Below are positions 1-33,525 of a stretch of DNA of 64,000 bases, in pieces. The stretch lies in the NCBI GenBank assembly GCA_949358305.1, contig OX442316.1:744001-808000 (forward strand), read 5' to 3'. A model generated the notes under the pieces. The model was not told the DNA's origin and searched no databases. It saw only the letters and a list, made by a program, of their open reading frames with translations. The DNA is from Strigamia acuminata (lineage: Eukaryota > Arthropoda > Chilopoda > Geophilomorpha > Linotaeniidae). The position numbers were made by a program, and so were the translations under genes. Position 1 is the stretch's first letter. Every line of letters starts with the position of its first letter.

Positions 1-955
1 TTTGGTCTCTAAAATTAAATTTCGGATGAAGACAATTCTTTTTTTACCAAATATTAGATCTCAATTCATAGTGTCAAATAAAACAATTTACATCTCTTTT
101 TACTCCCTTTTAGATTAATGTACATACAAAAGAAAAATCTTAATCTGTTTCAAATACAATATTTCTCATATTGGTCATATTACTTCATAAATTATACAAT
201 CATAATTTCCAACTTAACTTACTATTCAAGAAAAACTTACAAAACTTAAATTCAAAACTCAAATAAGAATGAAAATTAAACACTAATTAAACAATTCAAA
301 TTGGTTCGAATTATAATTAACCAAATTATTTCATCCATTTTTACCATAAACCTTCAGAAATAAAATACAACATTTAAATTTCACAATAAATTCTCATAAA
401 ATAATTTAACTCTTTTCAAAAAATAAATTTGTTTTTGGTTTTCATTATTTTCTTTAAAAATTTGAATTCTCTTCTAAAACATCAACTCTCTAAATCCTAG
501 AACATTTACAAAATTTTTGTGTTTGAAAATTTATTTACAATTCACATAATCAGTTTTATTCAAATTACGATAAACTTCACTAAATTCGCATTAATTACTT
601 CGCCTCGCAACCTCGGATTTTCATGTCATCAAATTTAACATTATTAAGAATTTTAATCTTACTGAAACCAATTTTTATCTGCTAATACTATGTAAAATAA
701 CATTTCTAACATATTTTCCTATTCATTAAAATTAATCCAAAGTCTAAGAAAATTATCAGCACGAATGAACGAAGATCGCGATTTGTTTCGTTTTGCAAAG
801 TTCGGTATTTTATACACTTTTAACCTAATATTTCAACTCAAAATCATACTAAAACACTTAAAATATGTTCACAAACCTCAAAAAACACAATTCAATTCAC
901 GACACAACAAATAAATATCAAAATTTAAGCTTTGGTTCACGCAAAAAGCTCGCAT
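1..955 (-). other. AT-rich spacer downstream of GypA-minus pol
   Basis: No gene is visible. It corresponds in position to the 928-bp spacer between pol and the Ulp1-like ORF in GypA-plus. It shares with that spacer a short conserved block (gcgatcttcgttcat on the minus strand, near 762-776). By analogy an ORF3 would begin at or just beyond the left edge, so its presence in this copy cannot be judged. Confidence 0.6.
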
Positions 956-3900
956 TCACCTCGGCGAAAATGTGGAGTAGCAATGGCGGTAGGATTTTCT
1001 CGCCTTCGGTCTGAGCTTGCGCGAACGATAGTCGTCGCTTTGTGTATCCGCGCCATCTAGTGGCGGGTTTTTAAGTTGTTTTTCAGTGTTTTCAAGTTCT
1101 GTTTGCGGTTCAAATAATGATTTGAGAGAAATTTGGTCACTATCATCGATATAACGTTCTTTTGCTTTGATTTGCTTTGTTTTTGTTGGCTTATCCAGAA
1201 TTTCAACTGCAATTTCTCCTTTTTTACTGATGTTTTTCACTTTTTCAGCAAATTTCACTTTCTTTTCTGGCATCTCTTTCAAAGCTTCGTCTATGTCTTC
1301 TTCAATTCTTGCTTTATACGGTTTCAACCTTTCTACGTTAACAATATCACTTTTCTTTCGTGTGGAATTAATAATTTCATAGTCATTTGGAGCTGTTCGT
1401 CGCACAATCTCGTAGGGGCCGGAAAATTGAGGTAAAAGCTTCTCTGACAGGCCAACTTTTCTATTTATGGTCTTCAAATAAACCAATTCACCTGGTTCAA
1501 ATTCTTTGTTGACTCTATCTTTGTCGAATCTTTTCTTACTTTTCTCTGACTGCTTTTGAAGTCGTTCATTTGCAATTTTCCTAGCCTGTTGCATGAATTT
1601 TGATGTGCGTAACGTGAACTCTTTTTGGGGCAGATTTAGGTTAACATCTATTGTCAAATCCACATCATATCCTCGAAGAAGATAGTGCGGTGTGTAACCT
1701 GTTGTTTCATGAACTCCCGTGTTGTAGGAAAACAGGACAAATGGCAGGAACTCATCCCAATCGGTGTGATCATCATTAACATAACTTTGCAACATTTTTG
1801 CGAATGTCGCATTAAATCTTTCTGTTAATCCATTGGTCCTTGGGTGGTATCCTGACGTTGTTTTATGCAAACTTTTGAATAAATTAGATACTTCTTCAAT
1901 CATTTGGTTCCTGTATTCCGTTCCACGGTCGCTTAAAATTTCTCTTGGGCTGCCTTCCTTAAGAATCACTTCATAAACCAAAGTCTTTGCTGCTTCTAGA
2001 GCTGTTCCTACTGGTGCAGCTCTTGCAATCACAGATCTTGACAAATAATCAGTCACAACGAAAACGTGTTTATTTCCTAGTTTTGACAATGGGAAAGGTC
2101 CAAGTGTGTCCATTCCAATCCGCTCGAATGGTTTTGAGACGGTTGACCACGGTTGCATTAGTCCTTTAGCTGGAGTTGTCATCGATTTTGCTTTTGCGCA
2201 GTTTTGGCAGGACAAGACGTATTTTCTAACGTCGGTGTAAATTCTTGTCCAAAAGAATCTTGTTCTTATTCGTTTCCATGTTTTTGCCAAACCTAAGTGA
2301 GCTCCTAGTAATCCGTCGTGCATTTCATGCAATACATCCTTCTGGAGTTGTTTCGGAACTACTAGCAATAATCCTTCTGTATTTAGGGAACTTGAAGAGT
2401 TTTTCTTCCTAAATAACGTTTTCTCGTGGAGCACGTACTGCTTAAGCGGTCGTCTCCTCTTCTTTGGAAGTTGCTCTAGGTTTTCAACTGCTGTAATTAG
2501 GTCCAGTAGTTTGGGATCCATCCTCTGTTGTGCAGGGAGGTCCAAATTTTCCAAGAAAAGCGAAGGTAATTTTTCTATTTCTTCTTCACTCATCTGGTCT
2601 GGTATCCTACTTAGTGCATCGGCGTCTGTGTGCTTTTTGCCGCTTTTATACACTATATCGAAATCAAAGTCTACTAATTGCAATGCCCATCTGGCTAAAC
2701 GTCCATTGGGGTTTCGGACTGACTTCAGCCATTGGAGGGGTTGGTGGTCGGTTATTATTTGGAATTTCTGTCCGTACAAGTAAGGTCTGAATTTCTGTAC
2801 TGCAAACATTATAGCGAGACACTCTCTTTCAGTGGCGGTGTAGTTTTGTTCCGCTGTGCTCATCAGTTTGCTTGCATACGCTACAACTCGCTCCTGGTTG
2901 TTGATCTTTTGCTTCAGAATGGCTCCCATTCCATACGCACTTGCGTCGGTTGATACTATGAATGGCTGTGCAAAGTCTGGATGCGCCAACACCGGTACTG
3001 TTATTAATGCATTTCGGAGTGTGATGAACGCTGTATCGTGGGGTGGTCTTCAGTCAAACTTCTCGTCCTTTTTAGTGAGATTCACCAGAGGTTTAGAAAT
3101 GTCTGCAAATCCCTTGATGAATTTTCGGTAATAAGAGCAGAGTCCTAAAAAACCACGTAGTTGTTTAACGTTCACAGGAAGTGGAAACTTCGCGACTGCT
3201 TCCAGGTTCCTGGGATCTGGTGAAACTCCATCAGCATCAACCACATGTCCTAAGTATCGAATGGTGTCGGTGGCAAACGTACATTTACTCAGCCTAACTT
3301 TCAGGTTTGCCATTCTGAGCTTTTCAAAAACTGCGTCCACATCCACGAGGTGCTGTTCGAATGTCTTCGAGAATATTATTAAATCATCGAGGTACGCTAT
3401 GCATACCTTTCCCAAGAGGTTCCCAAGCACTTTATTCATCAATTTTTGAAAGGCGGCTGGGCTGTTACATAATCCCATTCCGAGGACATTAAACTCATAA
3501 TGTCCGCTTGACGTCGTGAACGCTGTCTTTTCACGATCTTGTTCGTCTATTTCGACTTGGTGGTATCCCTGAATGAGATCCATCATCGAAAAATACTTCG
3601 CACCCGCTAGTTGATCTAGGGTGTCGTCGATACGTGGTAAGGGATAAACCATTTTCTTCGTTACTGCGTTTAAACGTCTCCAATCAACGCAAAATCTCCA
3701 TCTGCCGTCTCTTTTCTTAATGAGTAGTACTGGTGCACTCCATGGGCTCTCGGATTCTCTAATTACTCCTTGTTCAAGTAACTTCTTTGTTTCAGCCTCC
3801 TCGATTTCTTTTTCCTTAATGGATCGTCTATAAGGTTGCAAGTGGATTGGAGGAGAGTCTCCTGTATCAATACGATGTTTTATTGCCTGTGCTCTGCCTA

Positions 3901-4774
3901 AGTCACTGTCAGATGTTGCAAATCTATCCGAATTCTTCTCTAGCAGCTGTCGCATCAATTCCTGTTGAGTTGGTGTCATATTCTCATTTGCCATGGCCTT
4001 GCTAAAGTCAAATTGATCAGCTCTTTTTTCATCTAACAAGCCAGACTCAATCACGTAAAATGCTTTTGCAACTGCTGAGTTTTTTCCTAAATAGATTGTC
4101 TTTTTAGTTGGATTCGCAACACGCAGAACTCCTTCACCTTTTCTGAATTTAGTCAATGTCTTGCAACAAATCACGCCAAATCGATCAATTACTCCACTTA
4201 ATGGTTCTACAAACAATTCATCATCAACTTTCTTTGCTATTTTTATTGGTACTACACATTCATGTAAAGCTGGTATCGTTATTGGTTTTAAAACACGTGC
4301 AATATAGTTTTGTTCAGTGTAATTCTTGGACATTGGGAATACTTCTTGTTGTTTATCTTTTGGCCCTACAAAGATCTTCTGTTGGTCATAGTCGAGCTGG
4401 CACCTTGCAGATCTCAAAAAATTATCTCCTAGCAGTAAATGGTTGCCAAATCCGCTGACAATCAGCACTTCAATAGTATGTTGTTGTTGTCCAACATCAA
4501 TGGTAATCCTGGTTTTTCCTACTGGGGTTATCAATGAACCATCTACAACTCTAAGTCGAACATGTGGACATGGTTGGTATTTGAGCTGCAGAGTTCTTAC
4601 CAAATCTTCATTAATGATGTTGCGATAACCTCCGGAATCCAAGACACCAGTGACTTCCAAACCATTCACTACTACTGGAATCTGCAAAAGTTCATCTGTG
4701 GCGTTCAGCTCAATGATTTCTAATTTTCTCTTTTTGAATTTCTTCTTGTTTTTCCGTCTTTGTGGCCATTCTAG
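956..4774 (-). pseudogene. pol: GypA-minus pol polyprotein with a single in-frame nonsense codon
   Basis: Polyprotein of a Ty3/gypsy element: protease, reverse transcriptase, RNase H and integrase. Visible motifs in order are protease LDSGG, RT block FCVDWRR, catalytic YLDD (YLDDLIIFS), RNase H STDAS, integrase HHCC finger (CQNCAKAK at its end), the D-D35-E set with SDRGTEY and TERFNAT, and a GPY/F module (SGPYEI). The frame is entered by -1 slippage at the GGGAAAC beside the gag stop. The reading frame is continuous except for one TGA at 3050-3052, just after KKDEKFD, where the sister copy has a Trp codon. The frame stays open on both sides, so this is a point nonsense mutation between RT and RNase H, not an indel. 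The protein closely parallels the intact pol at 8258-12061. Confidence 0.9.
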
Positions 4775-7259: not shown

Positions 7260-7837
7260 TGTTATGTGGGATTTAGGCCCACTTGAGGCTACCCACACAA
7301 CTGGGATATGATAGGAAATAAAGAGTCATTTTAATTAGGTTTAAATTCAATCTAGTTTTTATTTAACCAGACAGCAAAGCTGTTTGATTATTCTTTCAAA
7401 TGGATGAGTTTACTCTGTTTACATTGGCACAATTCTTAAACTCAAATAATGAACTACATAAATTATATAAATTATATAAACTCTAATTATAAATCATAAG
7501 TGACACTCTGAATTGAGATGCAATCTGAAACTATTAAATAGTGATTAAATTAATAACAATTTCTGCAGCCAGCCAAGAACAGGCTGACATTGGATAGGAG
7601 GGATTTGAGTTCACTCTCAAGTGAGAGCCGGAAGAGAACTGTCAAACTTGGGCGGATTCACTTCACAGGAAAGCTCCTGTTACCCCCTTTAACTAATTGA
7701 TAAGTCCAGTGACGAGGCAATGATGTAATCGATTGCCAACGCCATCTATGGACGAAATTTAGCAACTTTTATCCGAATTATAGCCGAATTACGCGATACG
7801 GGTCGTCCGTTGATCGGGACGGCCTGTACGCGTAGCA
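7260..7837 (-). repeat. 5' LTR of GypA-minus
   Basis: 578 bp on the minus strand, starting TGCTACGCGTAC and ending CCCACATAACA. It is diverged from, but clearly related to, the GypA-plus 3' LTR: shared termini, a shared gttgctaaatttcg block and a following agatggcgt motif. The outer flank is ATAT and the inner flank is the primer-binding site. The 3' partner LTR is outside the window. Confidence 0.85.
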
Positions 7838-8261
7838 ATATGCAGAGGTTACTCCAGTCTTCTACCAAAACCAATGGTATACGCCACATCCAAACCAGGC
7901 GCAGTTCTCCAATAGAGGAAACTTTAGGGGACGACCTGGACAACAACGTGGATGGTGGAATAACAACAGTAATTGGAACCAAGGTAGAGGATGGAACAAT
8001 AGAGGTCAAAACAGAGGTAATTGGAATGATCAGTGGAATAATTCAGGTCAAGGATTCCAACAACAATACCCACAACAGCAATGGAATCCGCCACAACAGC
8101 AAGGGAACCCACCACAAGGTCAAAGACAACAGGGGAATCCGAATAACCAAGGTCATCCTAAAAATCCAAATTATAAAGGTAAAAATTTTATTGAAAATTA
8201 CCAAGGCCGAGGAAATCGAGGAGCCCCACGTGGTGGACCACCTAATGCATCGGGAAACTAG
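7838..8261 (+). pseudogene. gag: 3' fragment of GypA-plus gag
   Basis: Encodes the C-terminal Q/N/G/RG-rich tail of Gag (YAEVTPVFYQNQWYTPH onward), in register with the corresponding part of GypA-minus gag. The N-terminal half is missing because GypA-minus inserted at the ATAT in the codons preceding AEVTPV. The fragment ends with AAC TAG at 8256-8261, right after the slippery heptamer. The rest of the gene should resume on the far side of GypA-minus, outside the window. Confidence 0.85.
8252..8258 (+). promoter_or_regulatory. -1 ribosomal frameshift heptamer GGGAAAC (GypA-plus gag/pol)
   Basis: The gag frame reads tcG GGA AAC TAG. The pol frame is closed at 8243-8245 and open from 8246, so the overlap with gag is only about 16 bases and contains this perfect slippery heptamer. 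Conservation in both copies supports function. Confidence 0.85.
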
Positions 8262-11200
8262 AATGGCCACAAAGACGAAATAACAAAAAGAAGAGAAGAA
8301 GAAAAAGGAAGTTAGAAATTATTGAGTTGAACGCCACAGATGAACTTTTGCAAATTCCAGTAGTGGTGAATGGTATGGAGATAACAGGTGTCTTGGATTC
8401 TGGAGGTTATCGTAATATTATTAATGAAGATTTAGTAAGAACATTGCAGCTCAAATATCAACCATGTCCATACATTCGACTTAGAGTTGTAGATGGTTCA
8501 ATAATAATCCCGGAAGGAAAAACCAAGATCACTATTGACGTTGGACAACAGCAACACACCATTGAAGTGCTGATCGTCAACGGATTTGGCCACCATTTAC
8601 TGCTGGGACATAGCTTTCTGACATCTGCGAGGTGTAAACTTGATTATGACCACCAGAAGATCTTTGTAGGCCCAAAAGATGAACAACAAGAAGTTTTCCC
8701 AATGTCAAAAAATCATACCGATCAAAATTACATAGCTCGAGTTTTGAAACCTATTACTATACCAGCTTTACATGAATGTATAGTACCAATAAAAATTGCA
8801 AAGAAAGTAGACGATGAATTATTTATTGAACCACTTAGTGGAGTAGTAGATCGATTTGGAGTGATTTGCTGTAAAACATTGACCAAATTCAGAAAAGGTG
8901 AAGGAGTTCTGCGAGTTGCAAATCCGACTAAAAAAACAATTTATTTAGGACGTAATTCAGCAATTGCAAAAGCTTTTTATGTAATTGAGTCTGGCGTGCT
9001 TGATGAAAAAAGAGATGATCATTTTGACTTTAGCACGTCTATGGCAAATGACAATATGACGCCATCACAACAAGAGCTGATGCTACAATTGTTGAAGAAA
9101 AATTCAGATAGATTTGCGAAGACTGATAATGATTTAGGCAGAGCTCACACGATTAGGCATCGAATAGATACTGGAGATTCTCCTCCAATCCATTTACAAC
9201 CTTATAGACGATCGATTAAGGAAAAAGAAATCGAGGATGCTGAAACAAAAAAGTTACTTGAGCAAGGAGTCATTAGAGAATCCGAGAGCCCATGGAGTGC
9301 ACCAGTACTGCTCATCAAGAAGAGAGATGGCAAATGGAGATTTTGTGTAGATTGGAGACGTTTGAATGCAGTGACAAAGAAAATGGTGTATCCCTTACCA
9401 CGTATAGATGACACCCTAGATCAGCTAGCGGGTGCAAAGTATTTTTCAATGATGGATCTTATTCAGGGATATCACCAAGTTGAAATAGATGAACAAGATC
9501 GTGAGAAAACAGCGTTCACTACTTCAAGCGGACACTATGAGTTTAATGTCCTTGGAATGGGATTATGTAACAGTCCAGCAGCCTTTCAAAAATTGATGAA
9601 TAAGGTACTTGGTAACCTCCTGGGAAAAGTATGTATAGCATATCTTGACGATTTGATAGTGTTTTCAAAGACTTTCGACCAGCACCTCGTCGATTTGGAG
9701 GCAGTTTTCGAAAAACTAAGAGCAGCGAATCTCAAAGTCAAACTGAGTAAATGTACGTTTGCAACACACACCATACGATACCTCGGACATGTGGTTGATG
9801 CAGAAGGTATTTCACCGGATCCCAGGAACCTGGATTCTGTGGCCAAGTTTCCAATTCCTGTGAACGTTAAACAACTACGTGGTTTCTTAGGATTATGCTC
9901 GTATTACCGGAAATTTATTAAAGGTTTTGCGGACATTTCCAAACCTCTGGTGAATTTAACCAAAAAGGATGAAAAGTTTGATTGGGGACCTCCCCATGAG
10001 AAAGCATTCCACACGCTTCGAACAGCATTAATAACAGTGCCGGTGTTAGCGCATCCAGATTTTACTCAGCCTTTCATGATTTCATGCGATGCAAGTGCCT
10101 ATGGATTAGGAGCTATTTTGAAGCAAAAAGTCAACAATCAAGAGCGTGCCATCGCTTATGCAAGTCGTATGATGAGCACAGCAGAAATGAATTACACTGC
10201 AACTGAAAGGGAAATGTTAGCAATCATTTTTGCTATTGAAAAGTTTAGACCGTACTTATATGGACAGAAATTCCAAATTATTACCGACCATTCTGCCCTC
10301 CAATGGCTGAAAGGAGTCCGAAATCCAAATGGACGTCTAGCCAGGTGGGCGCTGCAACTAGCTGAGTATGATTTTGAAATATTTCATAAAAGTGGCAAGA
10401 AGCACACAGATGCTGATGCCCTGAGTAGGATCCAGGAAGAGTTAAGTGAAGAAGAAATCAAAAAATTGCCTTCGCTTCTCTTAGAAAATTTGGACCTCCC
10501 TGCTGAGCAGAGGAAGGATCCTAAACTTCTGGACCTCATAACAGCGCTAGAAAACCAAGAGCAACTTCCAAGAAAAAGAAGACGACCGCTAAAGCAGTTC
10601 GTTCTTCAAAACAAAACGTTGTTCAGGAAGAAAAAATTAAATAGTTCCCTGAACATGGAAGATTTGTTACTAGTAGTTCCAAAACAACTTCAAACAGATG
10701 TATTATACGAAATGCACGATGGATTACTAGGAGCTCATTTAGGTTTGGCAAAAACGTGGAAAAGAATAAGAACACGATTCTTTTGGACAAGAATTTATAG
10801 GGACGTTAGAAATTACGTCTTGTCCTGCCAAAGTTGCGCGAAAGCAAAAACGATGACTACACCAGCGAAGGGACTAATGCAGCCATGGTCAACAGTTTCA
10901 AAGCCTTTTGAGCGAATTGGAATAGATACGCTTGGACCATTTCCATTATCACGTCTTGGAAATAAACATGTTTTTGTTGTGACTGATTATCTTTCGAGAA
11001 ATGCAATAGCTAGACCAGCAGCAGCAGCTACAGCTTTAGAAGCAGCGAGAACGTTGTTATATGAAGTAATTCTGAAAGAAGGCAGTCCAAGAGAGATATT
11101 AAGTGACCGTGGAACGGAATACAGGAACAAAATGGTTGAGGAAGTCTCAAATATGTTTAAAAGTTTGCATAAAACTACGTCAGGATACCATCCAAGAACA

Positions 11201-12061
11201 AACGGATTAACTGAGAGATTTAATGCGACATTCGCAAAAATGTTGCAAAGTTACGTTAATGAAGAACATACTGACTGGGACGAATTTCTTCCATTTCTCC
11301 TGTTTTCATATAACACGGCCGTTCATGAAACAACAGGTTATACACCACATTATCTTTTACGAGGATATGATGTGGATTTGACAGTAGATGTAAATCTTGA
11401 CTTGCCACAGAAAGAATTTACTTTAAGGACAGCGAAGTTCATTCGAGCAGCCAGGAAAATTGCAAATGAGAGGCTTGAAAAACAATCAGCAAAAAGCAAG
11501 AAAAGGTTTGATGAAGATAGAGTCAACAAAGAGTTTGAACCAGGTGAATTGGTATATTTGAAAACCATCAACAGAAAAGTTGGCTTATCAGAGAAGCTTT
11601 TACCGCAATTTTCCGGCCCATATGAAATTGTGCGAAGAACTGCACCGAATGATTATGAAATAATCAATTCAACAAGAAAGAAAAGTGATATAGTGAATGT
11701 AGAAAGACTAAAACCGTATAAAGAACGAGTTGAACCAGAAATAGACGAAGTTTTGAAAGAATTACCAGAAAAGAAAGTGAAATTTGCTGATAAAGTAAAG
11801 AAAATCAGTAAAAAAGGACAAAGTGTAGAAGAAAACATTAAAAAACCAGTCGAAATGACGAAAATCAAACCGAGAGAACGTTACATAGACGATACAGAAC
11901 AAATCTCATTAAAATCGCTATTTGAACCACAGCCTTTGATAGGAACTAATGAAAATCAACTTAAAAATCCGCCACAAGATGGCGCAAATACACAAAAAGA
12001 CGATTTCCGGTCGCGCAGACTCAGACCGCAGAAACGAAAAGACTATCGCCATTGCTACTGA
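8258..12061 (+). CDS. pol: GypA-plus pol polyprotein (protease, RT, RNase H, integrase), intact
   Basis: Complete Ty3/gypsy Pol, about 1268 codons from the frameshift point; there is no ATG near the start, consistent with Gag-Pol fusion by -1 slippage. Domains by genomic position: protease GVLDSGG near 8395, RT FCVDWRR near 9340 and YLDDLIVFS near 9640, RNase H SCDAS near 10085, integrase HHCC finger 10710-10850, catalytic D near 10925, SDRGTEY near 11103 and TERFNAT near 11210 (spacing fits D-D35-E), GPY/F module SGPYEI near 11617. No stops or frameshifts, so the enzymes look functional. It acts in cytoplasmic reverse transcription and nuclear integration. Expression in this copy is doubtful because gag is interrupted. 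Confidence 0.95.
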   Translation, partial: LEWPQRRNNKKKRRRKRKLEIIELNATDELLQIPVVVNGMEITGVLDSGGYRNIINEDLVRTLQLKYQPCPYIRLRVVDGSIIIPEGKTKITIDVGQQQHTIEVLIVNGFGHHLLLGHSFLTSARCKLDYDHQKIFVGPKDEQQEVFPMSKNHTDQNYIARVLKPITIPALHECIVPIKIAKKVDDELFIEPLSGVVDRFGVICCKTLTKFRKGEGVLRVANPTKKTIYLGRNSAIAKAFYVIESGVLDEKRDDHFDFSTSMANDNMTPSQQELMLQLLKKNSDRFAKTDNDLGRAHTIRHRIDTGDSPPIHLQPYRRSIKEKEIEDAETKKLLEQGVIRESESPWSAPVLLIKKRDGKWRFCVDWRRLNAVTKKMVYPLPRIDDTLDQLAGAKYFSMMDLIQGYHQVEIDEQDREKTAFTTSSGHYEFNVLGMGLCNSPAAFQKLMNKVLGNLLGKVCIAYLDDLIVFSKTFDQHLVDLEAVFEKLRAANLKVKLSKCTFATHTIRYLGHVVDAEGISPDPRNLDSVAKFPIPVNVKQLRGFLGLCSYYRKFIKGFADISKPLVNLTKKDEKFDWGPPHEKAFHTLRTALITVPVLAHPDFTQPFMISCDASAYGLGAILKQKVNNQERAIAYASRMMSTAEMNYTATEREMLAIIFAIEKFRPYLYGQKFQIITDHSALQWLKGVRNPNGRLARWALQLAEYDFEIFHKSGKKHTDADALSRIQEELSEEEIKKLPSLLLENLDLPAEQRKDPKLLDLITALENQEQLPRKRRRPLKQFVLQNKTLFRKKKLNSSLNMEDLLLVVPKQLQTDVLYEMHDGLLGAHLGLAKTWKRIRTRFFWTRIYRDVRNYVLSCQSCAKAKTMTTPAKGLMQPWSTVSKPFERIGIDTLGPFPLSRLGNKHVFVVTDYLSRNAIARPAAAATALEAARTLLYEVILKEGSPREILSDRGTEYRNKMVEEVSNMFKSLHKTTSGYHPRTNGLTERFNATFAKMLQSYVNEEHTDWDEFLPFLLFSYNTAVHETTGYTPHYLLRGYDVDLTVDVNLDLPQKEFTLRTAKFIRAARKIANERLEKQSAKSKKRFDEDRVNKEFEPGELVYLKTINRKVGLSEKLLPQFSGPYEIVRRTAPNDYEIINSTRKKSDIVNVERLKPYKERVEPEIDEVLKELPEKKVKFADKVKKISKKGQSVEENIKKPVEMTKIKPRERYIDDTEQISLKSLFEPQPLIGTNENQLKNPPQDGANTQKDDFRSRRLRPQKRKDYRHCY

Positions 12062-12989
12062 TTCTTGCTACGGTGAACACGAACTCATAGTGTGACCCGG
12101 AAACAAAATCTTTTTATTGTCTATTTATTTATATTTTGTGTATAAAATTGTGTGTCAAAAGGTTTGTACGAATGATATTGATAATTTTAAGTGATTTTAG
12201 AGATGAATTTTGAAGTTTTAAACGTTTCTTGAGCGATTTTCGTAAAGTGAAACTAATCGCCATGTTCGTTCATTCGTGTTAGAATTTTAATTAGGTGAAA
12301 ATGTTTTAAACTAAAATTTTAAATAATTAGGAGTAAAATTTAATGACACATTAGTGTGAAATAAAATGATTTTAAAGCATAAATAAGAAGGAATGAAAGT
12401 GCGAATGGCGGGGACGCGAAAGGACCCAACGCGATCTTCGTTCATCTGCATTGAATTTTAATTAGGCTTAATAATTTAGGTAAAGTTTTAAAATTATAAA
12501 ATGCTGAATTTAATAGCATAGTAGAGTAAATTAAAAATAAATTTCAAAGAGAAAATTTGGAAAATTTAGTTCTAACAACACGAATGATTCGGGACGCGAT
12601 TGGGAAATTCATTGCGAATTTTGTTAAAATTGAAAAAGTTTGATGAATGTAAATATTTTTTCGATAGAAATTTGATTGAATTTTGATAAGAATAATTTAT
12701 TGTAAATAAGTAAAATGGAATAAGTTGATGATTGTTTTTGAAAATATTAATGATTTTTTTTTTAAAGAAAACTTGAAAAAATGAAAGAAAAATTTAATTA
12801 ATTTGAAATTCTTTTAGGAATTGTTAGAAGTTTGAAGTTTATTATGGAATATTTATTTATAATAGGAATAATTTTATTTATTAGGCATAATATAGTTGAT
12901 ATTATTTAATCTCATTTTGTTTTGTTTTATTTTCTTCATAAGTAGGTTGGAATCGTGTAGTGCTTAGTGACAGTGCGAAGGACCGTCAA
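12062..12989 (+). other. GypA-plus pol-ORF3 spacer with degenerate repeats of about 175 bp and a possible splice acceptor
   Basis: No ORF. A block resembling cgttcattcgtg followed by gaattttaattagg appears near 12264 and 12439, and a weaker copy sits near 12610, giving a period of roughly 170-175 bp. The distal end has a pyrimidine-rich run ending in AG (12917-12945) shortly before the ORF3 ATG. That is where a 3' splice site would make a subgenomic ORF3 mRNA, as for env in errantiviruses. The splice site is inference. Confidence 0.5.
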
Positions 12990-14432
12990 ATGGAAAATAT
13001 GGCGAGCAAATTCGACAGGATGGACATCCATTCGAGCTCAGATGAGAGCGACGAGTTCGAAATACCAGAATACGAACCAACCGAACCAATTGAAGTTGAG
13101 CCGATTGAACCAACTGAAGAGTCAACGGACTTAAACGACGTAATGCCTGATCAAGCGGAAGTAGAGATCGACCCGATGGCCATGTGGAATTGGTACGATA
13201 GAAGTATAGACTTGAACAATCCAACAGCGGGTACCAGTAAAACGATTAAATTGGAAGACATAGTCCAGTTCGAGCGCCCATTTACCAACAGACGTAAGAA
13301 AGGTCATAGCCAGCCACCAATGATGCTAGATCCAAACGACCCGAAGTACATCAAAAAGAAAAACCGTCAGGACCGACGTAAGCGAAATAGAACCTTGCGT
13401 CGTAAAACTGAAGGTATCGAGAAAAAGAAATTAACACCAAGGGGTTTGAAAATTATTCGAGAGCAGTCTCAGCGAGCGGTGAGGAGAAATTTCCGTCGTT
13501 TGCTGGAGATTAACGTTGAACGGAGAAATCTAGCGGCGGCGGTTATTCCTCTTCAACCGAAGGGCGCGGAAGGACGACCGATCTTTCAAGCTTATAAGCA
13601 GGAGGCGCAGGTATTGATCCTGGAAGAAGCGAAGATCCGTAACAAAGTGGATCGCGCAAAGGAATTAGGGAAGCGAACAGCGCTCTACGACCCACGGATC
13701 AACCTACCGTTACCACCAGCCGACTATGAAGTCAAGATCTCTGCAGAAAAAGCGATGGAAGCCCTGGAGAAATGGCCGGAATATTTTCAACATCACCCGG
13801 ATGAGCAAATGTACGTGTCGGAAGTGCGACCACATATTGCGGTCGGCCCTAGAGAAATGATTTCTTTAGGAGCATTGATGCCAGGCCGCATATCTTGGGT
13901 TCACGACACGGTGGTCGATTATTATTTGGGTATGTTGATGAAGCGATATCCGATAGTTTATGCGTTTCCAGTGGCAACCGTGGCAAAACTAATGAAAGGC
14001 GAGGATAAACCCAATACATGGCGTTGGCTCCGCGACCAGGTCGACCAACCGAAAAAACAGCACAAGATTTGGTTCTTCCCCATACCGGCGGAGGAACACT
14101 GGATCATATACGTGTTCGATATGGAGCGTTCTCCGCCGTGTGTGGGGTTCTACGACTCGTCGGGAAAGCCACACGTGGATCATTTCACGTGGTGGTGTAA
14201 TATTAAACTCAATTTAATAGGTTCTGGATACGAAATACCGAGTTACGAGCCATGGGAACCACCAAAAGCAGCCCAGCTTGATGGGGACAGCTGCGGGCCC
14301 ATGATTTTACATTTTGCTCGTAGATACGTTGAGTGCCGAGACCTGATGAAACTAGCGGAGGGCTCGGAATTGCGAGTTCGAATCCTGTACGAGATCCAGC
14401 AAGGAAAATTCGAACCTTTTGAAGAAATCTAA
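12990..14432 (+). CDS. Ulp1/SENP-like (C48) cysteine protease ORF3 of GypA-plus
   Basis: 480-residue protein starting at ATG 12990, between pol and the polypurine tract. The N-terminus is acidic (EYEPTEPIEVEPIEPTEE), followed by a strongly basic region (KKKNRQDRRKRNRTLRRK) resembling a nuclear-localisation or nucleic-acid-binding segment. The C-terminal 170 residues match the Ulp1/SENP fold by motif: WVHDTVVDYYLGML (cf. W-L-x-D-x-x-x-N/D-x-Y), HW at residue 370, D389 in FYDSSG, and QLDGDSCG giving Q429 and nucleophile C435 at the Q-x5-C spacing. The full His-Asp-Gln-Cys set is present. Family knowledge: these enzymes cleave SUMO/Ub-like proteins after Gly-Gly or, in viral relatives (adenain-like), process viral proteins. 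No signal peptide or transmembrane segment is seen, so it is not an envelope. Its role in the element is unknown. Confidence 0.85.
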   Translation: MENMASKFDRMDIHSSSDESDEFEIPEYEPTEPIEVEPIEPTEESTDLNDVMPDQAEVEIDPMAMWNWYDRSIDLNNPTAGTSKTIKLEDIVQFERPFTNRRKKGHSQPPMMLDPNDPKYIKKKNRQDRRKRNRTLRRKTEGIEKKKLTPRGLKIIREQSQRAVRRNFRRLLEINVERRNLAAAVIPLQPKGAEGRPIFQAYKQEAQVLILEEAKIRNKVDRAKELGKRTALYDPRINLPLPPADYEVKISAEKAMEALEKWPEYFQHHPDEQMYVSEVRPHIAVGPREMISLGALMPGRISWVHDTVVDYYLGMLMKRYPIVYAFPVATVAKLMKGEDKPNTWRWLRDQVDQPKKQHKIWFFPIPAEEHWIIYVFDMERSPPCVGFYDSSGKPHVDHFTWWCNIKLNLIGSGYEIPSYEPWEPPKAAQLDGDSCGPMILHFARRYVECRDLMKLAEGSELRVRILYEIQQGKFEPFEEI

Positions 14433-14732
14433 AGTTTATTTTTTATTTTGAGTTATTTGAGTTTTGTACTTTTCATTTCATTTCAGAAAAAAAACATGTA
14501 AAATAAAACATAGAAATACAAAAGACCTGTATAAATTAAACTAAAAGGGAGTACATGTAAAAATTGTGAAATTTTCTTTTGATTTTGAGAAATAATTGTA
14601 AAACAGCTGAGTGATAACTTGTATAAAAAGCAAAGAGCAACCGAACATTCCTTAAGAATGTCCGACTATAAAAGAGACCTGTCTGGACCGAAATTTGTAA
14701 TTTGGGGTCCAAATCACAGCAAAAAAGGGAGT
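14433..14732 (+). other. GypA-plus 3' untranslated region with polypurine tract
   Basis: Non-coding AT-rich stretch after ORF3. It ends in a purine run (caaaaaagggagt, 14720-14732) directly against the TG of the 3' LTR, the expected plus-strand primer site. Confidence 0.75.
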
Positions 14733-15300
14733 TGTCACGTGTACGAACCGTGTCGATTAATGCGCGATTCGTAACACGTAATTTGATCCATTATTGGTTT
14801 AATGTTGCTAAATTTCGGCAACAGATGGCGTGGCGATTGGAAACCGTCATCGTCGTCTGTTAGACCGATCAATTCGATTAAGGGTAGAATAGGAGATTTC
14901 CTATGAACTGACCCACTCTAAGACAGCTCACTTAATCTTATGTTGCTTTTCAGAGAACATCAATTTAACTTACTAGCCTAATGTCGCCCGATAAACAAAG
15001 GGTACGGCTGACGGCTATCTTCTGATATTATGATTTATGCAATTTATCACCCAGTTGTAAAGTGTTATTTAGTTGTACTGAATTAATATAATGTAAATGC
15101 CATTTCATTCAAAGTTGTTGATGATGATTTATTCGAGTTGTAAAGTGCACCAGTAATGAAGGTCGAACAGACTTTGTCTGTCCGATCTAATAAAGATTAG
15201 ATTTGAATTTAAAACATAAACAACGCCTCATTCATTCCCCTCACTCATTCAACAACAGTCACGTGGACCTCGGTCAGAAAGGGCCAGAATCCACGTAACA
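14733..15300 (+). repeat. 3' LTR of GypA-plus
   Basis: 568 bp from TGTCACGTGTAC to CCACGTAACA, preceded by the polypurine tract and followed by ATAT (15301-15304). It contains an AATAAA-type signal near 15189 and the motif cagatggcg near 14824, also present in the GypA-minus LTR. It is related to, but diverged from, the GypA-minus LTR and the solo LTR at 59006-59498. Confidence 0.9.
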
Positions 15301-15331
15301 ATATTGTGAGTGTCCAGCAGGGTAAGTGTAT

Positions 15332-15380: not shown

Positions 15381-17372
15381 CTTATTAATTTTTTTTCTGC
15401 CCATTAGACTTTCTGGAAACTGCCATCATGTTGGGGCACTACTGGAAGTGTATGCCAGGTTCTTATCTGAGAACCTGGTGGAAATTCCTAATGAAAGCTG
15501 CACAGATAAACTGTGTAATTGGAACAAACCCAGCAATAAAACAGCAAGTGTTGGGGTTCCCATTACAAGTTTGCCCCTAACACGTAACAATATGGTAAAG
15601 TACAGAAATTGTATATTTTTGAAACATTATTTGAAATAAATTTATTTACATTTTTTTTACAGGGCGTTTTATCACAACAAAAGGTTCTAAGACCAATCCC
15701 ATCTGCCTACGACCCGAGATTGGTATCCAATCGCTGTGTCAACCAAGTTGCCCTGCAAGAACTTTTTAAAAGCTTTGAAAAGTCGGTACCAAACTGTCCA
15801 TTTGTAAAGGACTTTTGTGAAAATCAATCAGATTATGGTAAACAAATTAAGGATTGTCCTATTGGTCCCATTCCTATGGGAAAAGTACCAAGTTTTGGGG
15901 ATTGATAATTCAGTTTTTAATGCAAATAATTTCCTTTTTTTGAAAAATTCAAATTTTTAAAAAGAAAAATTGAATTTTTGTGTAAAAATATTGAATTTTT
16001 GTGTAAAAAAATTGAATTTTTGTGTAAAAAAAATTGAATTTTTGTGTAAAAAAATTGAATTTTTGTGTAAAAAAATTGAATTTTAGCAATATAAATTTCA
16101 AATTTTGTAAAGAAAAATTGAATTTTGGTTAAAAAAAAATCAATTTTAGTACCATAAAATTTAATTTTGGTACGAAAAAAATTTGTATTAATTTATTTTC
16201 TAATTGTTCCCATTCCCGTCCTATCCAGCCCCAAAATAATTGTTTTTTCTCGTCCCTGCATCACATCTTAGCAACTAATCTGTATATATTATTCACAGAC
16301 AATTTGGAAACAACCAATACCAACAATCAAGAGCTGGCGCTAGTAGATGAAGGCAATAGTGAAAACGAGTTGAATAGCGTACAAACAAATGATTTATTGG
16401 ATGGTAAGCAAAATTAAATTATTAAATTTCAACTTTAAACAATGTTTGTGTTTTTCAGGACCCACTCCTCTGAGACCAGTTACAGGTAATACAGTGACTA
16501 ACATAATTTCGGAATCATTTCAGCTTGAGATCAGCAAACTGATCATTGACAAATACCCTATTTTGTCTGATGATGAAGTTATGCAAATCGAAAAAGAGAC
16601 CCGGGGACAATCTGATAATCAGGAGTGGTACAAGCATCGTTGCAACAGATTGACTGCTTCCTTTTATGGAAAAATTTCCAAGTGTGCCCGTAGCTGTGAG
16701 AGTATTTTGAAGTCAATACTCTACAAGCCCCCACCAAAAAACATGCCAGCTTTATTATACGGTAGAACAATGGAACCAGTTGCAGTAGCCAGGTATATCG
16801 ACTACCACAAATTAAAAGGTAGCCAAGTGGAAATTTCCGAATGTGGCTTGTTTATACATCCTGACAAGCCATATTTGGCTGCATCACCTGACCGATTAGT
16901 CACTGATCACAGTTCCATACACAAATTTGGTACTGTGGAAATAAAATGTCCATTCACTAAAAAATCACTAACTGTTGTAGAAGCATGTCAAAATAAATTA
17001 TTTTATTGTGAGATGAAAGACAATCAGTTACATTTGAAAAGAAATGATGACTATTATTACCAGGTAAATATAACAGAATATTTATTGCAATTAAATTGTT
17101 ACAGTGTTTCATTATTTCAGGTACAAGGGCAATTGGCAGCAACCAAAAGACAGTGGTGCGACTTTGTGGTTTACACAACTGTAGACATTATGGTGGAGAG
17201 GATAATGTTTGATCCTGACTTTTGGGCAAAAACACAACCAAAACTCCTACATTTCTTAAAGTATGCTTTAATGCCAGAACTGGTATTAAAAAGAATAAAG
17301 CAAAGGGGTAAATTATATGATGAACAGTTTTTTTCATATGCAAAGTTAAAAGCATCATGTAAAAAACTGTAA
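15301..17372 (+). CDS. SWIM-YqaJ nuclease gene of the ISL2EU element, spliced, 5' exons missing
   Basis: Second protein of ISL2EU elements. Exons consistent in phase: ...-15321, 15408-15594, 15661-15837, 16299-16403, 16459-17063, 17121-17372, with GT-AG introns. The first visible exon encodes YCECPAG and the next continues GLSGNCHHVGALL; together they form a SWIM zinc finger (CxC...CxH). The later exons carry a YqaJ-type PD-(D/E)xK nuclease: SPDRLV, VEIKCPF and YQVQGQLA. The last motif is correct only after removal of the 57-nt intron 17064-17120, which is in frame and otherwise inserts 19 residues. GypA-plus inserted immediately upstream of the CxC codons, so the gene is disrupted. The stop at 17370 overlaps an AATAAA. 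Donor 15838 was chosen because it alone matches the phase of the next exon. Confidence 0.8.
15333..15381. repeat. (TTTA)n microsatellite
   Basis: About a dozen ttta units in the first visible intron of the YqaJ gene (15322-15407). Confidence 0.9.
15958..16086. repeat. Short tandem repeat, unit about 20 bp (ttgaatttttgtgtaaaaa)
   Basis: Six near-identical units with A-run length variation, decaying into related ttgaatttt fragments up to about 16170. It fills most of the long intron 15838-16298 of the YqaJ gene. Spacing and homopolymer-rich units mark a minisatellite, not a CRISPR. Confidence 0.9.
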
Positions 17373-17392
17373 TAAAAAATTGTTTACTTCCT

Positions 17393-17661
17393 ATGACTAT
17401 TATCACCAGGTAAATATAACAATATTTATTGCAGTTAAGTTGTTACTTTCATTATTTCAGGTACAATGACAATTGCTAGCAACCAAAATACAGTGGTGTG
17501 ACTTTGTTGTTTACACAACTGTAGACATTAAGGTGGAGAGGATAATGTTTGATCCTGACTTTTGGGCAAAAACACAACCAAAACTCCTACATTTTTTAAA
17601 GTATGCTTCAATGCCAGAACTGGCCTTAAAAATTAAAAATGCAGTATGTATAAAACTGTAA
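17393..17661 (+). pseudogene. Tandem duplicate of the last intron and exon of the YqaJ gene
   Basis: Repeats 17052-17372 with about 10 percent change: same gactattat.accag|gtaaatataac donor, same tttcag acceptor, then DIKVERIMFDPDFWAKTQPK and a degenerated C-terminus (ELALKIKNAVCIKL). The start of the exon copy is frameshifted (gtacaatgacaattgctagc), so it cannot replace the real exon. It lies between the two convergent genes. Confidence 0.85.
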
Positions 17662-17672
17662 TAAAAACTTGT

Positions 17673-19573
17673 TTACTTTCTTAATGGTGGTTTGAAATTT
17701 GTCAAATATGAACAAACACTCACCACCTGATTTGCTGTATCAATTGAGCTCAGTTGCTGTACTGTTGTTAATATTTTATAAGTTTTAATTCGCCTGATTG
17801 CACGCTCAACTTCAATTCGTTCAGTCGCAATCTGTCTCGTCATGGCAACGTCATCCTCCGGAATTTGCCCTGTCACTTTTTTCATGAATTTAGGGGGTAT
17901 GTTTAACTTAACACCTGCAGGTAAAATATCAGCAATTTCGAAGCCCTTGTCAGCCATGACATTATGTCCAGGGCTTAATAGCTTTAAGAATCCAGATTCA
18001 GCCACTATTTTTCTATCTGAACTGCTACCGCCAAATAAGGGTGAAATGTACACAACACTGCCATTAGGTGTTATTGCTACCAAAAACTTGTACGTATTCC
18101 CATGTTTATAGTTAGAAAAAGTCTCTCGTTGAACAGAGAGTCGTGAAGGTGTTTGAATTTTTATCTCTGAACAATCAATAATAAGAGTAGTGTCGGCATA
18201 ATTTTTAAAATATTCTGGACATTTTGACTTGATAAAAGCAGGATGCTGAATAGGGAAAATCTCAACGAATTCATGGTGGAGAAAAGTTACCCAAGTCGTG
18301 AAAATTCTGTTAACAGTTGTAATGCTAATACCAAAACAACGAGCTAAATCGAGTACTGGTAAAGCTAATTTCAATCGCATAAGGGTAAGAAAGAACATTT
18401 CTTTAGTACTTAAGTTAAATGACACACGTGATTTTGCCTTTTTATCTCTTACTCGTGTATGCTTACCCTGCCAATAAAACAAATTTTCAGCCTTCTCAGA
18501 GAAGTATTTAAACAATGCTTCAAATGCATCTGCATTAGGTACACCGGTGTAAAAATTAACAAGTACTTTGCTACTTTTTATATTATCAAAAGTTAAAATA
18601 CGAGCAGATAATTTCTTGCTGCTATTTTGTAAATTAAAGACAGCATTTTGAAGCTCTTTAACTTTATGCTCAAGACTTTGCTGGTCAACAATAATTTTAT
18701 CCTTCTCAACTTCGAGTCTCTCGGCACGCAGCTTTTGCTTTTCAGTTTCATCCTTTTGGAGTCTGAGTTCCTCTCTTAATTTATCCAGCTCAGATATTTC
18801 AGCTTCCATGTATTCCTCATGTTGGAGCTCAAGTAAAGTAGCTGCTACTTCGATGTCACCCTCTTTATTGACCTGTGATGTTATTTTCTAAAATAATCAA
18901 ACATTAATATTTTTATATAATTTCCAGGAAAGTATTTTGGAGACATTAATGAGTATTCAGCAATTTGAAATGTTTTCATAGAGTATAATACTCCACAATT
19001 TTATATTTTCATAAATATTTTAAATATGTATTTTGAACCAAAGTATTTTGACCAACTGTAATATTTGATACAGGAATAATAAAAATATACATACGTTATG
19101 TGTGGATTCTTTTGAAGGTTTTCGGAAACGCTGCCTCCTTAACCTTTCTTCCGCCCGTTGATCTCGGGCACAGACAGCTATTTGCTGAAAAAAAAATCAC
19201 GAGTCAAACTTTCTCACAATAATAAACTAAAACACAATTAAAATAATGCAAACTTACAACTTCTACCCACTTTTTGTGCAGATATCCATTGAAAACGACT
19301 TGGAAAGGCTTCAGACTTCAAATATTTTCGCTTAGAATGCAATAATGGGCGGAAATCACATTCATAAAAATGGTCAGAGCAGACCTTCGTTCCATTCGTG
19401 ATTTTAAACTTTTTACCAACATCTCGTCTGATTTTCGCAATCCATTTCTTTCGAAGACCTTCATTTTTAGGCATAGAATGCCAGGTCACTTCTTTTGGAG
19501 AGTTTTGCGCCGTGTTATAGCAACAAGGAACGCAACAGTTGAAATGAGAGCTACGCTTCTCTTCCGCAGCCAT
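17673..19573 (-). CDS. THAP-HTH-DDE transposase of the ISL2EU element (three exons)
   Basis: Transposase predicted to bind the element ends and catalyse cut-and-paste transposition. Phase-consistent exons on the minus strand are 19573-19258, 19177-19095 and 18887-17673, giving 537 residues. Exon 1 is a THAP zinc finger: CCVPCC, W44, VCSDHF (C65, H68) and an AVPTIF-like AFPSRF. Next comes a charged coiled coil (KLREELRLQKDETEKQKLRA), then an HTH_Tnp_4-like segment (LPVLDLARCFGISITTVNRIF) and a DDE_Tnp_4 domain with D371 (IIDCSEI), D446 (MADKGF) and E494 (VERAIRRIK). Acceptor 19178, inside cagcaaatag|CTG, was chosen because it alone keeps frame with the gtaagt donor. No stop or frameshift was found, so the enzyme could be functional even though the element is split. 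Confidence 0.85.
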
Positions 19574-22500
19574 GTTTGTTATCCTAATTTGGAAATTTAC
19601 GGCGCCGCCACCAGATGTCGCGCGCGCTAAGCGAAAACCGTGTATTGGTGTGGTCTGAGGAACAATGTTTTGTTCTGAAGTTGTTGTTGGGTAATAATTA
19701 TCCTCATCAACCTCTGTGACAGGCCATTTCACTGCAGTATAGTCGGGTATGAATCGTTTCAATTCGACTATGTTTACTGGTCCAATTGTTTGTAAAGTAA
19801 TTGGCTTGGCAATCACGTAAACATTCGGGCTTTTTACTTCAGTGATGACAAATGGACCTTTGTATCTGTCCTCGAGTGAAGCTGTGTAACCTTTTGCAGC
19901 ATTCGAAAGAGCGTGGGTTTTTCTCAAAACCAGATCATCTTTTTTGAATGTGTCATTGCTACGATGTCGGTCATAATATCCTTTCTGTTTTTGTTGTGCA
20001 AGCAATTTATTACGAATTGCTGCCTGCATTAAAACTTTGGATCTTGCAACCAACATTCTTTGGGCATCCTGAGGTTGGTTTGGGTCAAATGGGGCGTCAT
20101 AAGAGATGTCCCTATTGTCCCACCAAGGCCTCAATTCCCTTAGAAAAGTAAGCATTGCTGGTGTGAAACCAGTTGTTACTGAGGGTGCGGTGCGCAAGGC
20201 AAAATTTATGTCGCCAATGCACCGATCCCACTGATCGTGTTCAGAGGTGAATATTTGAAGCATAATCTTGATGTTTCTATTTATTCTCTCTGTCAAGTTT
20301 GTTTGGGGGTGATATGGGGTTGTTTTCAGGATTGTTATTCCTGCATCCCTACACAACGCCTCATAAACATCGGAAACAAATTGGGGTCCGTTGTCGCTTA
20401 CGATAAAACGAGGGCACCCATGTGTTTCGAAAAAGTGTTTAAGAATGGGTACGACGTATGCAATTTTTGCACTGCGCAAAGGGACAATCTCAACCCAATT
20501 CGTTGCGTAATCGACAATGACAAAGAGCCACCTATTTCTGTTTTTAGTACGGACCTTGGGGCCAATAAAATCAATGCCAATTCTTTCAAATCTACCAATT
20601 TGGGGTGAGGTGGGAATCATCAAACCCTTTGGTTTTCTTTGAATAGGTTTGCACTTTTGACAGCGTTCGCAGCTAATTACATGAGTTCTAGCTTGCTGTC
20701 GCATGCCGAACCAAAAATATGCTCGTTTGAGTCTTTCAAAAGTGACATCAACTCCTCCATGGCCTGCTGTTGGGTGATCGTGTACCAACCGTAGGCAGTG
20801 AGTTTGGAGTGATTTTGGTACAAGTATTTTAAGACCAGCACCATCCTCTATTTCTGTCAGGAAAAAATCTGATTTATAGGATGAATTGATCATTAGTACC
20901 CCATTTTTATTTATTGCTAAATCTGACTTTACTGACAGAAAGTGTTGTGGGACTTGTTTCCAGATTTCATTATCCTCGAGGTTGTCGATTTCCAACCATT
21001 CAATGATTTTTGATAATTCTGGGTCCAATCTCTGCTCTGCTGCCATTCTGGTTGCGGAGATTGCTTGAATCCGTGCATCCAAAATAAACAGTGCTGTTTC
21101 TTGTGGTGGATTGTTTTCTTCTTCGGGATATTTTCTTGCTGTCGTATAATCGTCATCAAGATTTATCCTGGAAAGAGCATCCGCCACAGTATTATCAGTT
21201 CCTTTTCTGTATTTTATTACAAAATCTTCCTGCTGTAACTTCATTGCCCATCTAGCTAAGCGGCCTGCCGGGTCTTCTAAAGACATCAGCCATTTCAGAG
21301 CTTGGTGGTCAGTTTCTAGAGTGTAAGTGGAGTATTCTACATAAGGTTTAAATTTATAAACCGCCCAGATAACTCCTAAACATTCTAGTTCAGTAGCTCC
21401 GTAATTTGCTTCTGCACCTTGTAGAGTGCGGCTTGCATATGCTACTGGCCTGATTTTATCTTCATCGTCAGCCTGCATGAGGACTGCGCCGAGTCCGCCC
21501 GAACTTGCATCGGTGTGAATGATGAAAGGTCGGTCAAAATCGGGCAAAGGCAGCGTGATCCCATGCGCGAGCTGACGTTTAAGAGTTGCAAAAGCTACTA
21601 TACATTTTTCTGACCAATTCCACTGCACGTCTTTTTTAAGGAGCACGTAGAATGGCTTTGAAGTAATGTTGCATTCGTGGATTAATGGCTGATAGAATCC
21701 AACCATTCCTAAAAAACGTTGTAGTTGTTTAACATTTTTGGGTGCCGGATATGCTACAATAGCCTCCACTTTTGAGCCATTTGGACTGTAACCTTGGTTT
21801 GAAATTGTGAAACCCAGGAAATCCAATGTCTCTGAGCATAGAAAAGACTTATCAGGGCTTGCTGTTAGATTGTTCTTCCTCAAGCGCTTAAAGATATCTT
21901 CTAAGTGGATTAAATGTTCCTCAAAGGTATTACTAAAGATAATTATATCATCTAAGTATGCCATGGCCCATTTATGCTTTGAAATTCCCAGCACTTCATC
22001 CATCATTCTCTGAAAAGCACTAGGTGCATTACAGAGTCCGAAGGGCATTCTTGTAAATTGGAACGTCCCGTCTGGAGTTGCAAATGCTGTTTTTGGACGG
22101 TCAGAGGGTTTCAGCTTTATTTGATAATACCCCTTGGTCAAGTCCAGTGTTGAAAAGAAACATTTTCCTCCTAGGCAGGCTAAAATCATGGTAATGGATG
22201 GCATATGGTAGACATCCTTAACCGTTATCTTATTCAGCCACCTGAAGTCTATGCAAAGTCGATACGTGCCTTCTTTTTTCTTTACTATCACGGGTGGATT
22301 TTTGTAGCTGCTTTCGCATCTTTCTGCCCACCCAGATTTTAATAAAACAGTGACAAGATCTCGCAATAACTCCGCTTTTGCAGGGTTTATTGGTCTATCT
22401 TTGCATTTAAATGCTGGCGCATCACCTGTTGGAATCGCATGTTCCAAGGTTGGATGACAACCTGCTTCATCACTAAAAACTTTGTTGTATTTACTAATTA

Positions 22501-32289: not shown

Positions 32290-33525
32290 GATCAAATTTC
32301 AAAATAATACCGTAGCACAATTCACTTTGCACAAACACTTTCACAAAAATAATCTGAAGACACAGTAAATTCCCCCAAAAATTAGGCGAAATATCACAAT
32401 CCACCCTAGGACAAATCTCACTAAGTGAGATGCAAAACTCTACACAGTATCCCCCGAGTTCCGACCGGACTCCTAGGACCGCGGGACACTCGGTGGCCAG
32501 GGAAAGCCTGTGCAGAAATAGGATGGCACTAGTCGACTGACTAGAGGGTGCCAAACACACTAAAGGGCCCAAACAAAACCTTAAATAACTAATGACAAGT
32601 AATTTCGAACCCCTAAATGCACTTAAATCGATGTGAAGTTGGCAAAGTTGAGATGATTCGTGTATTTGCGGGACTGTGCGTCGCAAAACGATCCCCAAGC
32701 TGGCAGCTGGTCGCTCCCTCGTAGCACGATAGTACGCCGGGGTACAGGCTCGTGTGTGTGCGGAATTTCCTTCCTCGCACACAATCGCGATCGTTCGCGA
32801 CTTCGCAATTGCCGTTGTGCAAATTGCGGCTTTTCCAGTGGATGATATGAACGTTTCACGTTCGTAAATGCTCCTGGGAGTGTCCACGGAGCTTCCAAGC
32901 ACGTTGTCGAAACGTGTGCGCGAAGAAACGTACGTCGTACGTCGTTGAATCGCCGCTAAATTGCCGACGATCTCCGTGCGCTTGAAATGACGAAAATCTG
33001 GTCGAATTCCGTTGAAAACCAGCGCGAAAACGATCCAAACAATAAATATGTTCATTAAATAAAGTAATCCTCACCGCTGAATGTCCAAATCAATCCAAAA
33101 ACCACGATAAATGTGTGTTGATACTGCGCAAACACTTATAAGACGGGCGCCGCCATTTTGGATTTTGGAAAAGACGGTCTCGGTGAAAATGCACAGTCCA
33201 GCATGGTTTAACAGTTTCCAACTGTTAAATAATCAAAAAGAATGTTAATATATATTATATTCACCGCTGTCGGCAAAAACGCTGTGGTTCCAGCGTCGAA
33301 AAACGCTTGAAACCCGTCCAAAAACGAGTAATTCCGTCGTTGCCGCCCCGAACTTGGCTTCGCTGCTAAACGACGCACTTCAGACGTTCGTCGATGCCTG
33401 GTTTCTGTCTCTACGGTCCGCCCGGGTCGTGCGCGATGTCCGTGGTTGCCGAAAATATGCGTTCCTGGTCAGAATTTCGCGCTGAGTTCGAATTTGGCCA
33501 CGAAACTCACGCTGGACTTACAGAG
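32290..33525 (-). other. Cop1 5' leader
   Basis: 1.24-kb non-coding leader between primer site and gag ATG. It contains a YY1-like CAAAATGGCGGC on the minus strand at 33149-33160. Overlapping ORFs (for example 263 codons at 32264-33055) are arginine-rich and have no recognisable domain, so they are not called. Confidence 0.6.

Follow-up and report, generated by a model that had tools for sequence, protein, structure and literature searches.

ORF3 and the element that carries it

The window analysed here (G000:C4:744001-808000, a stretch of 64,000 nucleotides from Strigamia acuminata) contains a Ty3/gypsy retrotransposon with a third open reading frame (ORF3) of 480 codons, located between pol and the polypurine tract (PPT). 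The product of ORF3 is a peptidase of the Ulp1/SENP type, and we are highly confident that ORF3 is an accessory gene of the C48 family. The preliminary description had already placed this frame at 12990-14432, within one element whose 3' long terminal repeat (LTR) follows it, and both statements agree with our analysis. The 5' LTR lies outside the window, to the left (locus L036, G000:C4 ~740957-741525); the two LTRs share 97% identity along 572 bp, and the element is flanked on each side by ATAT. Two LTRs, a target duplication, a PPT, gag, and the protease-reverse transcriptase-RNase H-integrase order in pol are all present, as is typical for Ty3/gypsy, and the best-scoring named relative of the pol comes from the pseudoscorpion Cordylochernes (42% identity), which gives no confirmation of the "insect" label used in the preliminary description. 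The gag gene is interrupted by an oppositely oriented sibling element (from window position 7837 to beyond position 1). This nested sibling is a young insertion; its LTR pair shows no difference along 580 bp, an ATAT duplication is present, and a primer-binding-site-like sequence, TGGTGGAGATTGCGG, starts three bases past its 5' LTR.

The stop-free run of ORF3 comprises 496 codons, in comparison with at most 158 when the pol-LTR interval was shuffled 500 times. The protein contains H370, a YDS motif with D389, Q429, and C435, i.e. the signature reported beforehand, and a loose motif of this tetrad with its spacing appears in only 8 of 200,000 shuffles of the ORF3 protein. By analogy with Ulp1, Gln429 is presumably the oxyanion-hole residue. 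The C-terminal half, compared with the PDB using phmmer, matches 13 sequences at E<=1, all of them SENP/Ulp1 (best 7e-5), while a hand-reversed control sequence gives one unrelated match (E 0.42). A profile of the 22-sequence ORF3 family matches SENP1 in the PDB with an E-value of 4.5e-11, with the H, D, Q, and C residues aligned to SENP1 residues. The Pfam family PF02902 is matched by 11 of the 22 members at E<=0.1 (best 0.021), so that the ORF3 family would escape a Pfam scan. A PF02902 scan of the genome returned 29 places, none of them among the 89 ORF3 matches described below.

Structure prediction had been proposed earlier as a check. Folding of the single sequence gave no usable model (predicted local distance difference test score, pLDDT, of 35), whereas the model calculated from the 22-sequence alignment has a mean pLDDT of 74, with the residues below 50 nearly all within the first 82, and shows the Ulp1/SENP fold. 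SUMO proteases top both lists obtained in structure searches with this model, and the structural alignments to SENP1, SENP2, and Ulp1 show ~15-21% identity. Together with the profile match to SENP1, the SENP-like model bears out the assignment of a Ulp1/SENP-type peptidase to the third frame of a Ty3/gypsy element. In respect to the N-terminal half, residues 1-82 are acidic and disordered, and residues 118-227 form long basic helices with the NRQDRRKRNR motif. No membrane segment was detected by hydropathy in five ORF3 proteins (the top 19-residue value is 1.43, below 1.6). Instead of the membrane-anchored glycoprotein that is the third frame of errantivirus-type elements, a SENP fold is found. 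The features of both elements are collected in Table 1.

Table 1. Positions of features of the ORF3 element and of its nested sibling, in window coordinates
Feature	Position	Strand	Remarks
gag, C-terminal part	7838..8260	+	N-terminal part left of the window
pol: aspartic protease, reverse transcriptase, RNase H, integrase	8327..12061	+	Intact, 1244 codons; domains from Pfam
AT-rich non-coding stretch, pol to ORF3	12062..12919	+	GC ~26%
Polypyrimidine tract and AG	12920..12945	+	Candidate 3' splice site for ORF3 mRNA
ORF3, SENP/Ulp1-like, 480 aa	12990..14432	+	ATG at 12990, stop at 14432; frame open from 12942
Conserved basic helical region, residues 118-227	13341..13670	+	NRQDRRKRNR, like a nuclear localization signal (NLS)
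C48/clan CE catalytic domain, residues 246-475	13725..14414	+	
Catalytic His370 codon	14097..14099	+	
Catalytic Asp389 codon	14154..14156	+	
Gln429 codon	14274..14276	+	
Catalytic Cys435 codon	14292..14294	+	
PPT AAAAAAGGGAG	14721..14731	+	
3' LTR	14733..15300	+	Followed by ATAT duplication, 15301-15304
Nested sibling, pol-to-LTR interval	1..976	-	Without ORF3
Nested sibling, pol	977..4708	-	1 stop, zero gaps relative to the pol of the ORF3 element
Nested sibling, 5' LTR	7260..7837	-	100% identical to its 3' LTR, G000:C4:743404-743981

Conservation, loss, and history of ORF3

The search of the genome (237.5 Mb) with ORF3 gave 89 scored matches among 413 candidates, and 74 of the 89 have no inner stop (counted by eye, fragments included). 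Twenty-eight loci were examined, the 8 best and 20 picked across the identity range. A pol gene lies upstream on the same strand in 22 of them (detected only by its 3' end at L018 and L019), and the tetrad is intact in all 22. These pol-linked loci are not independent and fall into five lineages (A, B, L028-L031, L032/L034, and L033/L035); the tetrad is invariant across ORF3 lineages that are ~33-63% identical. The ratio of nonsynonymous to synonymous substitution rates (dN/dS) is given within families only, the synonymous sites being saturated between deeper lineages. It amounts to 0.04-0.10 in family A (three pairs), 0.10-0.27 in family B (five pairs), and 0.03-0.04 in the L028 group (two pairs), and when ORF3 is cut into three parts each of them is constrained (0.00-0.17 in six pairs). 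The suspicion that the catalytic residues are under selection is thus upheld by the intact tetrad (22/22) and by ratios of 0.03-0.27 within families.

At six ORF3 loci (L022-L027) no pol was detected within ~3.4 kb. The catalytic His is replaced by Ser in L022 and L023 and by Arg in L024-L026, and is intact in L027. The long frames of the five copies with Ser or Arg have nevertheless stayed open; pseudo-enzymes, dead relics, and non-autonomous derivatives are possible readings. The dN/dS value for the L022-L023 pair is 0.88, on few changes, and L024-L026 are too similar to judge. A cluster of ORF3 fragments is also found at G000:C1 47.99-48.10 Mb, where three fragments with identical scores are ~31 kb apart, which suggests a tandem array.

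The occurrence of ORF3 beside pol was surveyed in the 37 best pol copies among 7262 candidates. In subfamily A (96-100% identical to the window pol) ORF3 is listed for 11 of 14 copies, and in subfamily B (94-95%) for 2 of 23; the ORF3 list gives a minimum, and for 18 uninspected B copies "not listed" is no proof of absence. No ORF3 is present in the three inspected copies (L040, L041, and L042) of the 21 B copies that have no listing. In L041 and L042 the gap extends from before the candidate splice acceptor to just past the ORF3 stop, and in L040 it is larger and reaches into the LTR; L040 and L041 group together, while L042 is a separate sublineage. All three unlisted copies of subfamily A were inspected: L038 has lost 12998-14403, a deletion bordered on either side by GGAAAAT, L039 retains only residues 433-480, and L037, of ambiguous ORF3 status, departs from the element 105 bases past pol and contains 200 N. 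ORF3 is absent from the nested sibling as well, with its 3' LTR and PPT directly seen, and its pol-LTR interval partly matches the sequence 3' of ORF3 (the three anchors are equalled in 0, 2, and 9 of 1000 shuffles). The clean pol-LTR junctions of the nested sibling, L038, L041, and L042 are the case which the preliminary description had named as refuting a conserved protease frame, and ORF3 is not supported as a constant component. ORF3 is facultative, and conserved in the lineages retaining it. Its loss can be likened to that of the envelope gene in retroviruses.

The pol tree (12 rows) and the ORF3 tree (11 rows) contain the same clades, although in the latter two long branches join and the placement of L032 is unsure. 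The pol of the nested sibling is sister to A+B and the outgroup families carry ORF3, so that loss is favoured over gain in this sibling. As ORF3 is found at the same position in outgroup lineages, it is by parsimony ancestral and was later lost. Between the window copy and B, the synonymous divergence (dS) of pol is 0.34-0.39 (783-916 codons, four loci), whereas the ORF3 synonymous sites are saturated (proportion of differences 0.85-0.86) and the identity is 63%; in comparisons with deeper lineages both genes are saturated. As the simplest reading of these sequences, ORF3 was likely replaced once in A or B, with no breakpoint mapped. That the A/B contrast arose solely because ORF3 evolved very fast is unlikely, given that the synonymous sites differ too.

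The GC content at third codon positions in the window element (0.51 in ORF3, 0.32 in pol) drew attention to a recent capture from the host, which was rejected. The contrast recurs in 7 of 10 loci checked, those with pol (0.47-0.54 for ORF3 and 0.27-0.40 for pol), and ORF3 occupies the same position in pol families just 71-75% alike, so ORF3 is old. Of the repeats expected around a nested DNA transposon, only an AT-rich 11-bp inverted match (12923/14500) and a 9-bp direct repeat (12925/14441) were seen at ORF3, both presumably due to chance. The donor, which according to the preliminary description might be traced among host Ulp1/SENP genes, did not emerge: six other C48 loci were retrieved from the genome (translated pieces of at least 35 aa and long frames), and none is hit by the ORF3 profile. 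The locus L046, with exon pieces only, is presumed to be a host SENP.

Outside this genome, ORF3 gave no match at E<=1 among 4765 candidates from 5.8 billion proteins, and its C-terminal part none at E<=10 among 40 candidates. The viral_contigs collection yielded no match with ORF3, pol, or the pol alignment, and genome_contigs none with pol; the pol alignment found 7 contigs with distant pols in the latter. No ORF3 relative was detected by phmmer at E<=10 on these 7 contigs (best tblastn E 3.0), nor among 120 listed pol relatives (best blastp E 0.97). In general, ORF3 is an accessory gene with a long history in a Ty3/gypsy clade.

Other elements in the window

Three copia elements contain a methyl-CpG-binding domain (PF01429) in pol, at 55555-59016 (+ strand, E 8e-10), 33904-35811 (- strand, 5e-11), and 27610-32295 (- strand, 3e-4, just under the Pfam cut-off). 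In the latter two the domain lies upstream of the reverse transcriptase domain, and it is possibly a chromatin-targeting module. A 3092-bp repeat of 100% identity (53786-56877 and 60909-64000, 7123 bp apart) spans from upstream of a copia gag-pol frame into that frame; a tandem element, a product of recent recombination, and an assembly artefact are the alternatives. At 16389-19300 a YqaJ nuclease frame (+) is found beside a DDE_Tnp_4 transposase frame (-), an arrangement which we take to resemble ISL2EU. The gypsy pol frame at 19241-23188 (-) continues into a THAP domain, which may be the first exon of the DDE_Tnp_4 transposon.

Possible function and relation to known systems

The AG preceded by the best pyrimidine tract of the pol-ORF3 interval ends at 12942, where the AT-rich sequence changes to ORF3 (the one at 12945 shares second place with others). 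Among ten loci viewed, the tract is strong and equally placed in subfamily B (TTCTCTCCTTTTTCCATCAG in L016), the distant lineages show a weaker one, and none is evident in L034. At the sequence level, the tract and AG are consistent with a spliced mRNA. ORF3 would be translated from such an mRNA, with the acceptor at ~12942-12945, and the protein would enter the nucleus via the NLS-like basic region, where it would strip SUMO from host chromatin or from proteins of the PIWI-interacting RNA (piRNA) pathway and ease the SUMO-dependent silencing of the element family. Acting in trans, it would allow copies without ORF3 to spread as free riders, which would account for frequent loss beside strong selection. 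Piwi-dependent silencing in flies requires SUMO conjugation (PMC8733420, PMC7272611), which may not hold for the host. DeSUMOylase activity is probable; an anti-silencing role is plausible, but somewhat short of an even chance. DeSUMOylation, already raised in the preliminary description, remains the preferred reading. The best explanation overall is a deSUMOylase that would work in the nucleus and in trans against SUMO-dependent silencing; it is given about even odds, and the link between fold and substrate is inferred.

Several observations weigh against that explanation. The PF02902 search suggested in the preliminary description gave the single ORF3 sequence a match (E 0.074), but one of 13.3 bits, under the cut-off of 20.7, and the placement of the tetrad comes from sequence alignment, not from the geometry of the model. 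Copies without ORF3 have amplified well, and ORF3 is therefore not required in cis. In yeast, Ty1 RNA increases when Ulp1 activity or tethering is lost (PMC8585004), and the substrate of ORF3 could be another ubiquitin-like modifier or a protein of the element.

The same enzyme evidence (tetrad, SENP1 profile match, and model) would suit a protease that deSUMOylates the Gag, integrase, or ribonucleoprotein of its own element, or nuclear-pore factors, for nuclear entry or integration, and for the Ginger1 transposases fused to Ulp1 or OTU, active participation in transposition has been suggested (PMC2836005). However, a step needed in cis would not vanish so often, unless supplied in trans, and the window contains an ORF3-less copy with identical LTRs, while no ORF3 is listed for 21 of the 23 top pols of subfamily B; we consider this role rather unlikely. 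An adenain-like maturation protease that cuts Gag or another polyprotein is more doubtful still. Gag processing, raised in the preliminary description, is unlikely given the aspartic protease domain of pol and the spread of copies without ORF3. The position of env, possible spliced expression, and absence from amplified copies would agree with a gene serving an env-like infectious or cell-to-cell phase, dropped once a lineage became strictly intracellular, as in the idea of env-less superspreaders; but with no membrane segment in the five proteins and the fold of an intracellular enzyme, this too is improbable. A hitch-hiking gene of no benefit to the element might be dispensable in a number of copies, as ORF3 is, yet purifying selection and a tetrad invariant over ~33-63% identity would not be expected of it, and with such dN/dS values we regard it as very improbable.

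A SENP1-like enzyme with an NLS-like region, for which no maturation role is needed and whose absence is tolerated in cis, is in line with a diffusible factor directed at the host. In its fullest form, the proposal of a trans-acting deSUMOylase is only tentative: a dedicated, spliced nuclear enzyme would disarm piRNA/heterochromatin silencing in trans and would behave like an env gene, selected where kept, exchanged, and repeatedly dropped by spreading free-riders. Siblings with and without ORF3, copies that lost the His, and lineages 33-99% identical are natural controls within one genome, and the role of the protease is therefore directly testable.

With SENP1, SENP2, and Ulp1 (C48) ORF3 shares the fold and the H-D-Q-C residues, and SENP1 aligns across the whole catalytic domain, but ORF3 is borne by a retroelement and has its own N-terminal half. 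The genome also encodes a Mutator-like element (MULE) transposase with C48 and PHD domains in one frame (L043, G000:C1:47588300-47592300), with six places in the genome that are equal in PF02902 score and frame length; the L043 frame is not recognized by the ORF3 profile. The long C48 frames L044 and L045 show no other Pfam domain at E<=0.01. Orchid Ty3/gypsy elements reportedly carry an m6A demethylase domain, likewise an acquired enzyme, although the enzyme and the host differ. Ulp1 genes in transposons are already known. In nematodes, the non-LTR retrotransposons NeSL and Utopia encode a Ulp1-like cysteine protease (PMC4640811), there as an N-terminal domain of the LINE protein, whereas ORF3 is a separate frame 3' of pol in an LTR element. 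MULEs with a captured Ulp1 (Kaonashi/KIU), linked to anti-silencing via VANC (PMC13317346), are DNA transposons with a MULE transposase, in contrast to a pol with reverse transcriptase and integrase. Ginger1 combines a gypsy-type integrase with Ulp1 or OTU in one element (PMC2836005), but it is a cut-and-paste DNA element with Ulp1 fused to the transposase, while here ORF3 is separate and pol has a reverse transcriptase. A Ulp1-family protease is also found in Cryptons of oomycetes (C48; PMC3212892) and in Polintons (vUlp1; PMC11071308), but these are tyrosine-recombinase or DNA-virus-like elements. In the parts of the open-licence PMC literature available, no LTR retrotransposon with a Ulp1/SENP (C48) frame was found described. 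Since Ulp1-like proteases occur in several transposon classes, the SUMO system may well be a point at which transposon control is generally vulnerable. The LTR elements of bdelloid rotifers, with an enzymatic ORF3 (GDSL esterase or DEDDy exonuclease; PMC5408684), resemble the present case in having an enzyme gene in the env position that is family-specific, gained, and lost, while the enzymes differ. The rotifer ORF3s are reported to show no significant departure from neutrality in their intragenomic evolution (PMC5408684), whereas the ORF3 described here is under purifying selection.
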